Virus record (IMG/VR): IMGVR_UViG_3300025769_000917
Location: 1 to 22,642 of that record
DNA: 22,642 nt
Reading direction: 5' to 3' (one strand)
Origin: a virus
Each line of letters opens with the position of its first letter. The stretch's first letter is position 1. Positions 5,017 through 22,642 of the stretch are shown in pieces. The position numbers and the translations under genes are program-made. The notes under the pieces are model-generated. The model made no database searches. It saw nothing but the letters and a program-made list of their open reading frames with translations, and was not told the origin of the DNA.

Positions 5017-5151
5017 ATGCCAGCTAAAAAGAAGGAGACTAAACAACGTCTCGACGCTTCCTGCTGGAAGGGTTATGAAAAACGTGGTACCAAGGTTAAA
5101 GGTGGTACCCGTGTAAACAATTGCGTTAAAAAAGGAACTAAGAAGAAATGA
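5017..5151 (+). CDS. Small basic two-cysteine protein, 44 aa
   Basis: A short Lys-rich protein with core SCWKGYEKRGTKVKGG then RVNNCVKKGTKKK. The CWKGYxxxGTKxKGGxRVxNC pattern, with cysteines at residues 16 and 36, is one I recognise as recurring in marine cyanophage small proteins and at the ends of some virion proteins. Its function is unknown to me. It starts four bases after the preceding stop and its own stop overlaps the next ATG (ATGA). The two cysteines could pair or bind metal, which is speculation. Confidence 0.75.
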   Translation: MPAKKKETKQRLDASCWKGYEKRGTKVKGGTRVNNCVKKGTKKK

Positions 5152-5600
5152 TTGAGTGCCCTGATTGCAACGTCCAAGAGCAGTATGTTCTGGAACAACT
5201 CCAAGTAAAAGCGGAGATCAAAGACAAGACTGCCCTGGCTGTGATCATGGGCAACATCAAACAAGAATCTGGTTTCCGCTCCAACGTCTGTGAAGGAGGT
5301 GCTATACTTCCTTACGACCAATGCCTTCGAGGAGGGTATGGTCTTATCCAATGGACAACTCAGAAACGCTACGATGGACTTGGTTCATTTTGTCGCCGTT
5401 ATTCTTGCAACCCTTCTAGTCTTGAAGGTCAAGTACGGTACATGATTAACGAAGGACAATTCCGTGCTGAACTGAGTGAGTTCCGTACTCCTCATCAACC
5501 CGTTCCCTTTTACATGAATTCTGCTTCCTACTGGTTAGGTTGGGGGATCTTTGGTAGACGGGAACAATACTCATACGACTACCTAAAACGATTCAAATGA
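5148..5600 (+). CDS. Phage lysozyme-family muramidase (probable endolysin or virion hydrolase)
   Basis: A 150-residue protein with a lysozyme-like core: a helix holding the likely catalytic Glu40 in GNIKQESGFRSN, then GGYGLIQWT (residues 62-70), the usual substrate-cleft segment of the phage tail-lysozyme family. It would cleave peptidoglycan. A CPDC motif sits at the N-terminus (residues 4-7), and there are further cysteines at 48 and 59, so disulphides or metal binding are possible. There is no signal peptide, so it would need a holin or release during lysis, or else be carried in the virion. It overlaps both neighbours (ATGA at each end). No holin is recognised in this window. Confidence 0.82.
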   Translation: MIECPDCNVQEQYVLEQLQVKAEIKDKTALAVIMGNIKQESGFRSNVCEGGAILPYDQCLRGGYGLIQWTTQKRYDGLGSFCRRYSCNPSSLEGQVRYMINEGQFRAELSEFRTPHQPVPFYMNSASYWLGWGIFGRREQYSYDYLKRFK

Positions 5601-5947
5601 AAACTCTTGCTATCCTCCCCGCTGTCGCTCTGATGGCTGCACCTGCTTTCGCCGCTCCTTATGTGAATGTGGAAGCCAACTCCGGTTTTACCGGTTCTGA
5701 CTACACTGGAACTTCGACTGACTTCCACGTCGGTATTGATGGTTCTGAGGGCGCTGCCTCCTGGTACGTTCAAGGTGGTCCTACTGTGTTCAGTCCTGAT
5801 GGTGGTGAAGCTGACACCAAACTGACTGCCAAAGCTGGCGGTGGTGTTGATGTGAGCAAGCAACTTTCTGTGTACGGTGAGATTTCTGCTGCCTTTGATA
5901 CCGTCAACAGCTACGGTACCAAGGCTGGTCTGAAGTATCGCTTCTAA
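5597..5947 (+). CDS. Secreted outer-membrane-like small protein, 116 aa
   Basis: It begins with a clear signal peptide: Lys2, a hydrophobic core LAILPAVALMAAPA, and an AFA|AP cleavage site after residue 19. The mature chain of about 97 residues is rich in Gly, Ser, Thr and aromatics, with alternating polar and non-polar residues (YVNVEANSG, DFHVGIDG, SWYVQGGP, KLTAKAGGGVDV, LSVYGEISAAF), and ends GLKYRF. A terminal Phe after such strands is the mark of outer-membrane beta-barrels. The length would give about six to eight short strands, so it may be a small barrel or a periplasmic beta protein. The role is unknown; it could alter the host envelope late in infection. It overlaps the lysozyme gene by four bases (ATGA). 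Confidence 0.8.
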   Translation: MKTLAILPAVALMAAPAFAAPYVNVEANSGFTGSDYTGTSTDFHVGIDGSEGAASWYVQGGPTVFSPDGGEADTKLTAKAGGGVDVSKQLSVYGEISAAFDTVNSYGTKAGLKYRF

Positions 5948-5954
5948 TCCTACT

Positions 5955-5996
5955 ATGTGGTGGGTGGGAGGCAACTTTAATTACTTACTGACATGA
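5955..5996 (+). CDS. Possible 13-codon leader peptide coupled to psbA
   Basis: A very short frame reading [13 protein letters not shown] fills the gap between the secreted protein and psbA. Its TGA overlaps the psbA ATG as ATGA, the same junction used by most neighbouring genes. A GGGAGG (5966-5971) lies inside it, 21 bases before the psbA ATG, which is too far for direct use as a ribosome binding site. Ribosomes translating this frame would end exactly at the psbA start. Such an arrangement could arise by chance, so confidence is low. Confidence 0.35.
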
Positions 5997-7072
5997 CTGC
6001 AACAATTGCACTTAAAAGGAAGGAGAGCGCATGGGAGCAGTTTTGTTCCTGGGTGACCTCCACCAACAACCGTCTTTATGTAGGCTGGTTTGGGGTTCTG
6101 ATGATCCCCTGCTTGCTAGCCGCCGCTATTTGTTTTATCGTGGCATTCGTTGCCGCGCCACCTGTTGACATCGATGGAATCCGTGAACCTGTCGCAGGCT
6201 CCTTGTTGTATGGAAACAACATTATTTCGGGAGCCGTCGTTCCGAGCAGCAATGCCATCGGACTACACTTCTACCCAATTTGGGAAGCTGCTTCACTTGA
6301 TGAATGGCTGTACAACGGGGGTCCATTCCAACTCGTCACTTTCCACTTCCTCATTGGCATCTATGCTTACATGGGACGTGAGTGGGAACTTAGCTATCGA
6401 CTAGGAATGAGGCCTTGGATCTTTGTTGCGTACTCTGCTCCTGTCGCCGCTGCGACTGCTGTGTTCCTTGTTTACCCGTTTGGACAAGGTTCTTTTTCTG
6501 ATGCTATGCCCTTGGGGATATCCGGCACCTTCAACTACATGCTGGTGTTCCAGGCTGAGCACAATATTCTTATGCATCCTTTCCACATGCTGGGTGTGGC
6601 CGGCGTTTTTGGTGGGTCTCTTTTCTCAGCTATGCATGGTAGCCTTGTTACGTCTTCGCTTGTTCGTGAAACGACTGAAGACATGTCACAAAATTATGGT
6701 TACAAGTTTGGGCAAGAAGAGGAGACTTATAATATTGTCGCTGCTCATGGTTACTTCGGTCGGCTTATTTTCCAATACGCCAGTTTTAATAATTCCCGTA
6801 GTCTTCACTTCTTTCTTGCTGCCTGGCCTGTTGTAGGTATTTGGTTTGCTGCATTGGGTGTGTCTACGATGGCATTTAATCTCAACGGTTTTAACTTTAA
6901 CCAGTCCCTGCTGACCAATGATGGTCGAGTGGTGAATACCTGGGCTGATATCCTGAACCGTGCTAACTTGGGATTTGAGGTGATGCATGAGCGTAATGCT
7001 CATAACTTCCCCTTGGATCTCGCAGCTGCTGAGACCACTGCAGTAGCTTTGAAAGCTCCTTCTATTGGTTAA
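5993..7072 (+). CDS. psbA: Photosystem II reaction-centre protein D1
   Basis: A full-length 359-residue D1. Five thylakoid membrane helices can be followed. Key residues sit at canonical numbers: H118, E130 (GREWELS), Y161 (TyrZ), D170, E189, H190, H198, H332, E333, H337, D342 and A344. The C-terminal extension after A344 ([15 protein letters not shown]) is the part removed by host CtpA so that A344 can bind the Mn cluster. E130 is the form found in high-light cyanobacterial D1 isoforms. The N-terminus ([17 protein letters not shown]) differs from typical host copies, and [15 protein letters not shown] replaces the usual VES of the stromal loop. The gene was acquired from a cyanobacterial host and keeps photosynthesis running while host D1 turnover fails. 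No intron is visible. Confidence 0.98.
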
Positions 7073-7264: not shown

Positions 7265-7354
7265 ATGTCGTCCGTTCATTCGCTATTCGCAAATGGCGAA
7301 CGCATGTCACCTGATCATGGAACGGGGGTCAGGTACTTTCATTCAGAACAATGA
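7265..7354 (+). CDS. Possible 29-aa peptide ending HGTGVRYFHSEQ
   Basis: A short frame MSSVHSLFANGERM...FHSEQ whose TGA overlaps the next ATG as ATGA. It contains the 9-bp hairpin at 7279-7300 and the first copy of the direct repeat at 7321-7338. There is no ribosome binding site. It may be a leader for the following gene or simply non-coding structured RNA; the two readings cannot be separated here. Confidence 0.3.
   Translation: MSSVHSLFANGERMSPDHGTGVRYFHSEQ
7279..7300 (+). repeat. Strong 9-bp hairpin downstream of psbA
   Basis: TTCGCTATT pairs with AATGGCGAA around a CGCA loop: nine consecutive pairs with one T-G wobble. No T-run follows, so it is not a standard terminator. It may be an mRNA stabiliser or processing site separating psbA transcripts from the capsid transcript. 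The function is inferred; the pairing is seen directly. Confidence 0.6.
7321..7338 (+). repeat. Direct repeat copy 1 (AACGGGNGTCAGGYACYT)
   Basis: An 18-base element that matches 7467-7484 at 15 of 18 positions; two of the differences are T/C and one is G/A. The purine-rich GGGGGTCAGG lies 17 or more bases before ATG 7351, so it could be a distant ribosome-loading element. This copy does not have the pairing partner that copy 2 has. Confidence 0.5.
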
Positions 7355-20339: not shown

Positions 20340-22642
20340 CAACAACTGAAATTTTTTATACAGGTGACAATAGCACTACGCTATACACCTTTCCATTTGA
20401 ATACATTACTAAAGACGACGTTAAGGTAAGTCTTAATGACGTTGAAACAAGTGAATACACCTACGCCAACGCTACAACTATTCAGATGAACACGGCTCCT
20501 GCAGTTGATGTTCGTGTGCGTATTTTCCGTTCTACTAATGTAGATACATTGAAGGCGACGTTCTCGTCTGGATCATCGATTCGTGCAAAAGATCTTAATG
20601 ATAATTTTCAGCAAAACAACTTTGCTGTAGAAGAAATCAGGAATTATACTTGGGACAACGAGGTCGATACTATTCACAGTGACGAAACTTGGAGTAGTTC
20701 TGACACCAAGGTTGCAACTACTGCTGCCTTGGATGCTCAGTTCTGGGATCAAACGGCGGACACGATCCAGAGCACAGAAAATTTTGAGAACACTGACGAC
20801 AAAATCATGACCGCTGCGGCAATTGACGACCGCATTGATCATGTTATTACTAATGATATCGGTACCGATGGTACTGGTATTACTGTTACCGACGACGGTG
20901 ATGGTACTATTACTCTGGGTCTTGCTGACAATTCTATTGATTTCAGTAAGATTAAAAATGATGATATTATTACCTATGCTGAACAAGAGCAAAGTTCTGT
21001 AAACCCTGCAGATACTAACATCTTTACAGCTAACGCTGCAGCTCGTCGTTTTGATTGCCTTGTGCAAACTGCTGTTCCTACTGGTTCTAACTGGGAAACT
21101 GGTAAGATGTGGATGCAGAACGACACTGATCGTACTGTACACATTTGGGACGGCACTCAGTGGCTTCCTATTGCATCTGGTGGTGCATTTACTACGCTGC
21201 CTAAGGTTGTCTACGTTGACTCGATTAACGGTGATGACACCTACGAAGCACATCGTCTAAGCAACCCTAAAAAGACCATTAAATCGGCTATTGATGCTAT
21301 CAACGCTGATCCTGATGGTGACGGCAGTATTGTCTTGGTTGCGCCTGGTATCTACGGGGAAGAGTTCCCCATTGATATTGAAAAGAATGACGTTGCTGTT
21401 GTTGGTTCTTCGTTGAGGAACTGCATCATTCACCCAGCTATTCCTGTTGCTGATCAAGCTGGGTATGACGTTGATGTACCTGAAGCTAACGAACTGCAAA
21501 TCATGTTCCGTGTGAACAGTGGTTCGTACTTCTATGGTCTTACGCTGCAAGGTATGAAGGCAAGCGGTACCCGTGGTGGTAACGCTCTTGATACTGATGC
21601 AACGTATGGTCTGCCTACTAACCAAGGCTGGAACTTTGCGTTCTATCCTGGTGCAGTTATTAAGAAGTCTCCGTACATCCAAAACTGTACAAACTTCTCT
21701 GATAGCCAAATTAACAACGTAACCTTTACTCCTCACGTCCCTGGTGAAGGTGCGGCTGGTGACCTTGACTCTGGTTTTGCTGGTGGTGGTCTTCTTATTG
21801 ATGGTTCAGTTCCAGCTTCTAACAGTCCTCTGCGGTCGATGGTATGCGATAGTTATACCCACACTGCATTGAATGGTCCTGGTATTTTTATCACTAACAA
21901 CGGTTATTGCCAAGCTACTAGCTCCTATTCATTCTTTAATCATTACCACCTGAAAACTAAAAACGGTGGTCAAGCTAACCTGGCTGCTTCTACTACTGAC
22001 TTTGGTAGCTACTCGCTGATTGCTGATGGTCGTTCGACTAACGCAATCTTTACGGCTGCTACTACTGCAGGTGCAAGCAGTGGAGACACCACCTTTACGA
22101 TTGGTGCTCCTAGTGTTGGTCCTGATTGGCATGGTGCTGCTACCCGTCCTCAAGACAACATGCTTGTGGATATTGGTGGTAATACCTATCCTGTGCTGTC
22201 TGCTGTTGCAGCGGGTAGTGGTTGGACTGTGACGATTAGTCGTCCTGATCCTGCAAACCTGTCTCAAAACCTGGGTCTTGCTAATAACGTTGCTAGCGGT
22301 GCATCTGCTAACTTCTACCTTCGTTCTATGATCGCTTCTAGCGGTCACACGATGGAGTATGTCGGTAGTGGTACTAACTACACGGCACTACCTGAGAACG
22401 GTGGTGTTCCTGATGAAGCACGGCAAAAGATTGAGCTGAACAACGGTAAGATTTGGGCAGCTATTACTGACCACAAAGGTAAGTTTATTGTTGGCGATAC
22501 GTTTAGTGTTGACCAGCAGACTGGCTTTATTGAAACTGGTTCTGGTAGTTTTGCTATTCCTCGTCTGATTGTTGACTTGGATCTGAACGGTAACAACATC
22601 TCCGACTCTACTGGTAACGTTGTTATTAACGATACGCTGTCT
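20336..22642 (+). CDS. Tail fibre protein, T7 gp17-like N-terminus with beta-helix body (cut by window end)
   Basis: 769 codons are open to the window edge. Residues 1 to about 110 (TEIFYTGDNSTTLYTFPFEY, then SSIRAKDLNDNFQQNNFAVE) form the T7 gp17-type domain that attaches fibres to the tail. Two imperfect repeats follow, SSDTKVATTAALDAQFWD and NTDDKIMTAAAIDDRID. From about residue 290 (KVVYVDSINGDDTYE, KKTIKSAIDAINA, SIVLVAPGIYGEEFPIDI) the sequence looks like the start of a right-handed parallel beta-helix of the pectin-lyase type common in cyanophage fibres. The rest is Gly/Ser/Thr-rich and probably contacts the host surface. The C-terminus and any chaperone or tip domain lie outside the window. 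Confidence 0.9.
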   Translation, partial: MATTEIFYTGDNSTTLYTFPFEYITKDDVKVSLNDVETSEYTYANATTIQMNTAPAVDVRVRIFRSTNVDTLKATFSSGSSIRAKDLNDNFQQNNFAVEEIRNYTWDNEVDTIHSDETWSSSDTKVATTAALDAQFWDQTADTIQSTENFENTDDKIMTAAAIDDRIDHVITNDIGTDGTGITVTDDGDGTITLGLADNSIDFSKIKNDDIITYAEQEQSSVNPADTNIFTANAAARRFDCLVQTAVPTGSNWETGKMWMQNDTDRTVHIWDGTQWLPIASGGAFTTLPKVVYVDSINGDDTYEAHRLSNPKKTIKSAIDAINADPDGDGSIVLVAPGIYGEEFPIDIEKNDVAVVGSSLRNCIIHPAIPVADQAGYDVDVPEANELQIMFRVNSGSYFYGLTLQGMKASGTRGGNALDTDATYGLPTNQGWNFAFYPGAVIKKSPYIQNCTNFSDSQINNVTFTPHVPGEGAAGDLDSGFAGGGLLIDGSVPASNSPLRSMVCDSYTHTALNGPGIFITNNGYCQATSSYSFFNHYHLKTKNGGQANLAASTTDFGSYSLIADGRSTNAIFTAATTAGASSGDTTFTIGAPSVGPDWHGAATRPQDNMLVDIGGNTYPVLSAVAAGSGWTVTISRPDPANLSQNLGLANNVASGASANFYLRSMIASSGHTMEYVGSGTNYTALPENGGVPDEARQKIELNNGKIWAAITDHKGKFIVGDTFSVDQQTGFIETGSGSFAIPRLIVDLDLNGNNISDSTGNVVINDTLS

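Follow-up and report, generated by a model that had tools for sequence, protein, structure and literature searches.

PhoE and OprP are phosphate-starvation porins, which combine Pho control with a positively charged pore face, and pstS is well known among the metabolic genes carried by cyanophages. In the literature found, as far as its text was accessible, the passage of scarce nutrients through the outer membrane of an infected cell is not linked to phage genes. PF24653 (Phage_OMP) is an already known phage family, named for its barrel-like domain, many records of which carry the label DUF680. The accessible parts of earlier work list DUF680 in 15 genomes of 16 cyanomyoviruses (Sullivan et al., PMC3037559) and describe a DUF680 cluster 173 and a PstS cluster 174 as both over-represented at BATS (PMC3686209). 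DUF680 as a real domain was rejected, as the window protein and 6 other phage family members gave no match to it at E≤1 in a Pfam scan. A tested function or structure was found for no PF24653 protein in the literature, including the accessible text of PMC9964418, PMC6103462 and PMC9602691.

What could such a protein do in an infected cyanobacterium? Here a PF24653 gene of the window, by which we mean the whole stretch of DNA analysed, a virus record of 22,642 bases, is compared with its phage and cellular relatives. New are the split of the family into two clades, the reading of the protein as half of a barrel and the relatives encoded by host genomes. Tentatively, and with a little less than even confidence, we regard the window gene as encoding an exported subunit of a late-made outer-membrane channel, in which six-strand sheets inserted by BAM would pair into a 12-strand barrel. 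The computed support consists of the open reading frame, the family, the signal peptide, the terminal Phe, the six strands, the two clades and their differing upstream signals. PhoE and OprP, and likewise lambda Lom, resemble the proteins described here in idea only, as Pho-regulated or phage outer-membrane proteins; no search matched either.

A PF24653 gene between lysozyme and psbA

The window holds the late genes of a T7-like cyanopodovirus, namely those for ribonucleotide reductase, a portal-type adaptor, a head assembly protein, a high-light protein and lysozyme, followed by the PF24653 gene, psbA and the genes for the major capsid, tail and internal virion proteins. As originally predicted, the gene is situated between a lysozyme-like gene and psbA (Table 1), and its ATG overlaps the stop codon of the lysozyme-like gene in the sequence ATGA. 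At the right end of the window, 20573-21736 on the minus strand, two ORFs of 226 and 159 aa have no PHROG match.

Table 1. Features of the PF24653 gene and its neighbours in the window, and examples of the RNA leader in other loci
Feature	Position	Strand	Remarks
Lysozyme-like gene	5148..5600	+	PF18013, PHROG 512; stop overlaps PF24653 gene start
PF24653 (Phage_OMP) gene, gp222 clade	5597..5947	+	116 aa, ends AGLKYRF
Signal peptide, residues 1-19	5597..5653	+	predicted cleavage after AFA, read from sequence
Strand 1, residues 20-32	5654..5692	+	AlphaFold2 model
Strand 2, residues 35-51	5699..5749	+	AlphaFold2 model
Strand 3, residues 54-67	5756..5797	+	AlphaFold2 model
Strand 4, residues 73-85	5813..5851	+	AlphaFold2 model
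Strand 5, residues 90-100	5864..5896	+	AlphaFold2 model
Strand 6, residues 105-114	5909..5938	+	AlphaFold2 model
C-terminal LKYRF, outer-membrane-type signature	5930..5944	+	terminal Phe and aromatic residue at -3 in relatives
psbA, usual downstream neighbour in podoviruses	5993..7072	+	
Leader examples	L087:3857-3934; L118:3330-3407; L092:3856-3934		

The window protein matches PF24653 with E 7.3e-42 and 142.9 bits against a curated cut-off of 27, its residues 2-116 aligning to profile positions 3-122 of 122 and thus over the full length. It also matches PHROG 417, and Syn9 gp222 belongs to the same family. With PF13505 (OMP_b-brl) the score is under the cut-off of 28.7 (E 0.0024, 18.5 bits). 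The original prediction considered such a gene rare in podoviruses, a view that does not hold, as tblastn detected a PF24653-type gene in 469 of 50,697 phage records, all of them named as Synechococcus, Prochlorococcus, cyanophage, marine or uncultured phages. One or two copies are present in each of 15 whole cyanophage records, picked because the family is present, and none in 14 control genomes. Nothing sets the window protein apart from PF24653/PHROG 417, with which it shares the signal peptide, the terminal Phe and the cyanophage source.

Among podovirus loci psbA follows the PF24653 gene within 900 nt in 44 of 54, six of the 54 ending within 150 nt. A lysozyme gene lies directly upstream in 11 of the 54, each time with the ATGA overlap, and directly downstream in 10, and these arrangements would suit a protein made together with lysozyme that replaces a spanin by weakening the outer membrane. 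Such a role in lysis seems improbable to us, since 33 of the 54 loci have no adjoining lysozyme gene. Spanins are recognized by a lipid-anchor cysteine or by a transmembrane helix with a periplasmic coil. The window protein shows neither feature: it contains no cysteine, hence no lipid-anchor Cys, and no transmembrane helix beyond the signal peptide, and its mature model is all-beta.

Several copies of the family deserve mention for their context. A 189-kb Prochlorococcus single-cell contig (L216) carries a copy and may be the genome of a phage infecting that cell. Another copy, on a Cyanobiaceae contig of 2.4 Mb (L249, G121:C1:132523-132861), is interrupted by two in-frame stops and is perhaps a decayed phage gene. 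Genome contigs searched with the phage profile and one peptide pattern gave 24 pattern matches with 7 true relatives, in MAGs or a single-cell genome; these 7 are taken for phage contigs, the surrounding ORFs having been listed around only one. In S-RIP2 (L082:2776-3288) the annotated start precedes the evident signal peptide by extra residues, so that the gene start looks misplaced.

Export signals and a predicted six-strand fold

The original prediction of a secreted beta protein of outer-membrane type agrees with the strength of the family match, with a confident all-beta model and with structural matches that are mostly outer-membrane barrels. Its individual elements recur throughout the family. 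The predicted signal peptide, called from the sequence and its conservation, ends in AFA, and across 106 aligned relatives (108 representatives minus two with short starts) Ala19 is invariant and Ala17 is kept in at least 90%. The terminal Phe of the window protein is likewise general: in all 244 complete ORFs of the family from the fetched loci, which were selected by similarity, Phe is the last residue and position -3 is Tyr, Phe or Trp. No other translated window gene ends in Phe (20 further ranges, of which one was out of frame). Moreover, in each of the six strands hydrophobic columns alternate with polar ones, and none of 5000 permutations gave an alternation as strong.

AlphaFold2, supplied with the 106 relatives, gives six strands at a pLDDT of about 94-97 across the mature window chain, and six strands also for the pstS-linked clade described below, at lower confidence (mean 78.8). 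The beta, outer-membrane type of fold thus stands, and a barrel closed by one chain, for which structure prediction had been proposed as a check, is not supported: the model has six strands and would, on the available evidence, correspond to half of a 12-strand barrel. In structure comparison the window model matches BrkA with a Z of 9.2 and an rmsd of 3.0 over 97 residues, against an rmsd of 4.2-4.8 for OprF, OmpA, OmpW and NspA and 3.5 for a designed barrel. The pstS-linked model overlays half of BrkA with an rmsd of 1.8 Å over 100 residues (Z 8.2) and EspP with 2.2-2.8 over 108-119 residues, compared with mostly 3.3-4.5 for 8-strand barrels, 3.1 for one designed barrel and 2.5 for the 10-strand OpcA, where Z values of 8-9 are middling and avidins come close in rmsd in the comparisons of both clades. 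With the strand numbers that we take BrkA, EspP, the 8-strand barrels and OpcA to have, the modelled curvature is suggestive of half of a 12-strand barrel, which fits better than a whole small barrel. The window protein may therefore be a half-barrel of which two copies would pair into a small channel.

The autotransporters BrkA, EspP and NalP, half of whose barrel overlays the models, differ in that a single chain forms all 12 strands and carries a passenger domain, and a relation in sequence to PF24653 is without support: the phage sequence profile found as its best match in the PDB an autotransporter at E 0.5, and the host profile found none. Barrels of the OmpA/OmpX type (PF13505) share with the window protein the meander topology, the C-terminal signature and a weak profile similarity, and have two strands more than the six predicted in its model. 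Could the protein then be a small barrel that is no channel, monomeric, closed or oligomeric, and serve as membrane anchor or filler as in the 8-strand OmpX type? OmpX is the best single Foldseek match (E 0.012), and OprF and OmpA rank beside BrkA in Z. Six strands in place of eight, and an rmsd to 8-strand barrels that exceeds the one to 12-strand halves, make this reading rather unlikely in our estimation.

Two phage clades with different neighbours and upstream signals

In a tree of 100 usable columns with long branches between phage and host, 121 phage rows separate from 20 host repeats (100/99), and within the phages a pstS-linked clade (99/99) separates from a gp222 clade (96/92) that contains the window copy. 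A one-to-one correspondence between the tandem phage genes and two host repeats was rejected, as the host repeats group together and not with the phage clades. The common order in myoviruses (e.g., S-SCSM1, P-SSM2) is gp222 type, pstS-linked type, pstS, and the pstS-linked gene is directly upstream of pstS. Members of the pstS-linked clade such as S-SCSM1_144 and P-SSM2 PCMG_00250 have the same domain and the same six strands as the window protein; unlike the window copy, they have Pho-box-like sites, pstS as neighbour and a positive inward face. This clade is probably the cluster named PhCOG173. In the podovirus P-SSP2 (L262:2941-3300) a copy of the pstS clade occupies the psbA slot, its end coinciding with the beginning of psbA, and since the podovirus label changes at least three times on the tree, the podovirus psbA slot appears to have been filled more than once.

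The upstream regions were scored with consensus sites from the accessible parts of PMC10976474 and PMC3037559, for upstreams of at least 200 nt outside loci L081-L092, with each copy assigned to a clade by its best BLAST query; the myovirus count includes some contigs (e.g., L031-L033, L036) that lack podovirus as well as myovirus markers. A double Pho box at 14 or more of 16 positions precedes pstS-linked genes in 28 of 53 non-redundant stretches (3.4 in shuffles), and TATAAATA precedes none of the 53. For myovirus gp222-type genes the T4-type late promoter TATAAATA is found in 32 of 53 (0.5 in shuffles) and a Pho site at 14/16 or better in one of 53. Podovirus copies have a Pho site at 14/16 in one of 25 and TATAAATA in none of 25, and P-SSM4-type copies, counted apart, have the exact TATAAATA in 2 of 8. 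The window copy has neither a Pho site nor a pstS neighbour. A late promoter in myoviruses would be compatible with a late-made channel, with lysis and with the protection of progeny phages alike.

The clades also differ in the charge predicted for the lumen. With clades again assigned by best BLAST query, the inward face by hydrophobicity alternation and the orientation deduced, the net charge of this face is +1 to +5 in all 36 pstS-linked rows, whose proteins are overall richer in Lys and Arg on the inward side, and 0 to -6 in all 65 gp222-type rows, the window protein having -1; five P-SSM4-type rows range from -5 to +3 and the host repeats from -6 to +1. Pho control and a positive pore face, the marks of phosphate-starvation porins, are thus both lacking in the window copy and both seen in the sister pstS-linked clade.

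This distinction bears on published work on S-TIM4. Its ORF224 (L260:41633-41992) occupies the gp222 slot by nrdC and falls into the gp222 clade, not the pstS-linked clade, against the accessible text of PMC6224464, which equates it with PhCOG173 and a phosphate role. As far as the available text of PMC3686209 goes, the joint enrichment of DUF680 cluster 173 and PstS cluster 174 at BATS suggests that the phosphate link belongs to the pstS-linked clade and not to the gp222 clade. In populations evolved on WH8102, 13 mutations in ORF224, many of them disruptive, jointly reached about 100% according to the same part of PMC6224464, indicating that the gene was dispensable in that experiment, and such a sweep of loss of function would make any benefit dependent on host or medium. 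It is also hard to reconcile with a lysis protein that is needed.

Could the protein be a component of the virion? In podoviruses the gene is located among structural genes, and the accessible accounts conflict: S-SZBM1_90, which bears the DUF680 label, was detected in CsCl particles by 2 peptides with 25.4% coverage (PMC9146016), and the S-TIM4 ORF224 product was counted as not particle-associated (PMC6224464). A signal peptide would be unexpected in a virion protein and outer-membrane debris may co-purify with particles, and we consider a virion role very unlikely.

Cellular relatives and zinc-uptake operons

PF24653 was found in 48 of 400 Cyanobiaceae genomes at E≤0.001, in 32 above the cut-off; a few of the matches are single-domain and phage-like, the majority are longer ORFs. 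Five Cyanobiaceae proteins of about 245-274 aa (e.g., L233:1594-2364) hold two tandem copies, and the three that were scanned against Pfam are all above the PF24653 cut-off, with two matching stretches per protein. Both repeats match the phage domain, and the terminal Phe and a neutral to negative inward face are shared with the window protein; the two domains are fused in one chain, and the chromosomal gene adjoins ZnuA and ABC-3 genes. A second, His-rich type of about 320-400 aa, with profile matches in 58 of 201 genomes, resembles PF24653 in its C-terminal half with varying strength.

Pfam identifies ZnuA near the PF24653-like genes in L241 and L248, in L241 also FUR, an ABC ATPase, an ABC-3 permease and CobW; by sequence, ORFs of these kinds are also present in L242 and L243, with FUR Pfam-confirmed in L242. 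We read these four neighbourhoods as zinc-uptake operons. For the His-rich proteins (L225-L228, L234, L235, L240-L242, L248) zinc-transport genes are nearby where neighbours were checked, and three of them scanned against NCBIfam had no match. Aligning the phage profile with the cellular relatives by hhalign gave E 1.9e-8 and 7.8e-9, compared with 2.3e-5 over 67 columns for a PF13505 protein and 0.12 for a capsid protein, and judged from these profiles the relation exceeds a general likeness among outer-membrane proteins, yet partly overlaps with it. Two-repeat or His-rich relatives were absent from viral contigs, where 90 and 22 pattern matches included none.

The cellular relatives also bear on superinfection exclusion or receptor shielding, in which an outer-membrane protein would block adsorption of further phages or keep progeny from binding to cell debris. 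The predicted outer-membrane location is in keeping with it, late expression in myoviruses would suit the protection of progeny, and prophages are known to encode small barrel proteins such as lambda Lom and the PA-2 porin. Short loops and conservation over myo- and podoviruses and over Synechococcus and Prochlorococcus phages are unlike a receptor-specific blocker, and both the pstS-linked clade and the zinc-operon relatives point to another function. Exclusion is accordingly an unlikely role for the window protein.

A candidate late outer-membrane channel

Of the three roles offered in the original prediction, a change in permeability agrees best with the observations: in the sister clade the gene adjoins pstS and carries Pho-box-like sites, and the cellular relatives are in zinc-uptake operons. 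Superinfection exclusion and lysis are without direct support. With modest confidence we favour a late envelope channel over these two. How would such a channel arise? Cleavage of the signal peptide would leave a mature chain of about 97 residues, the C-terminal Phe signature would be read by the barrel-assembly (BAM) machinery of the host, and the mature chain would fold as a curved six-strand sheet. Two such sheets would join edge to edge to a 12-strand barrel, as the tandem repeats of the host protein may do within one chain. Synthesis would be late, alongside the capsid and lysozyme genes, and the channel would make the outer membrane of the infected cell more permeable or let more nutrients enter. 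From the neutral to negative lumen of the gp222 clade it follows that the pore would pass small solutes or cations. The outer-membrane location, the pairing, the channel activity and the benefit of the window protein we infer from the features described above, and late timing is less natural for nutrient uptake, which counts against the channel.

A wider proposal, possible but doubtful, is that cyanophages encode split outer-membrane channels, six-strand halves that would form 12-strand pores and be related to the fused zinc-operon protein. The pstS clade would supply a phosphate pore that favours anions, is controlled by the Pho system of the host and is encoded together with the phage PstS, and the window clade a late, neutral or cation-favouring one with its own RNA leader in myoviruses. 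If this holds, phages supply the outer-membrane as well as the periplasmic step of nutrient uptake, and if PF24653 proteins are channels at all, phages directly alter the permeability of the envelope. A barrel of two times six strands beside a fused 12-strand host relative would furthermore be an example from nature of how barrels grow by duplication, and the two clades lead to opposite predictions for ion selectivity and timing.

A structured RNA leader in myoviruses

In myovirus gp222-type genes a leader of two hairpins separates the late promoter from the start codon (examples in Table 1). In an alignment of 37 of the 41 leaders two-sided changes occur in 9 of 12 pairs and 95.0% of the cells pair (77.3 in shuffled alignments); the covariation score of 0.558, compared with 0.230 for shuffled alignments, was reached in 0 of 500 shuffles. 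Since the leaders were selected for TATAAAT, this alignment is no test of the promoter. The leader model has a single match in each of 10 of 11 myovirus records, ACG-2014f being the exception, and none in 4 podovirus records, and the 10 matches end at the start codon of the gp222-type gene or a few bases off. In 58 mostly podovirus loci it had no match, and 87 other sources yielded 67 matches at E≤1, nearly all upstream of a gp222-type gene. For this leader, searches of 12 sources with Rfam 15 yielded nothing at gathering, and two stretches yielded nothing credible at E 10. A description of this RNA was not found in the accessible literature; it is possibly a new cis-regulatory RNA. A second leader copy at L119:324-395 does not precede a family gene, its nearest ATG opening no long ORF. 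The window itself carries an RNA element of another kind, a glutamine-II riboswitch aptamer (Rfam RF01704, 50.1 bits) at 7270-7334 on the plus strand, between psbA and the capsid gene.
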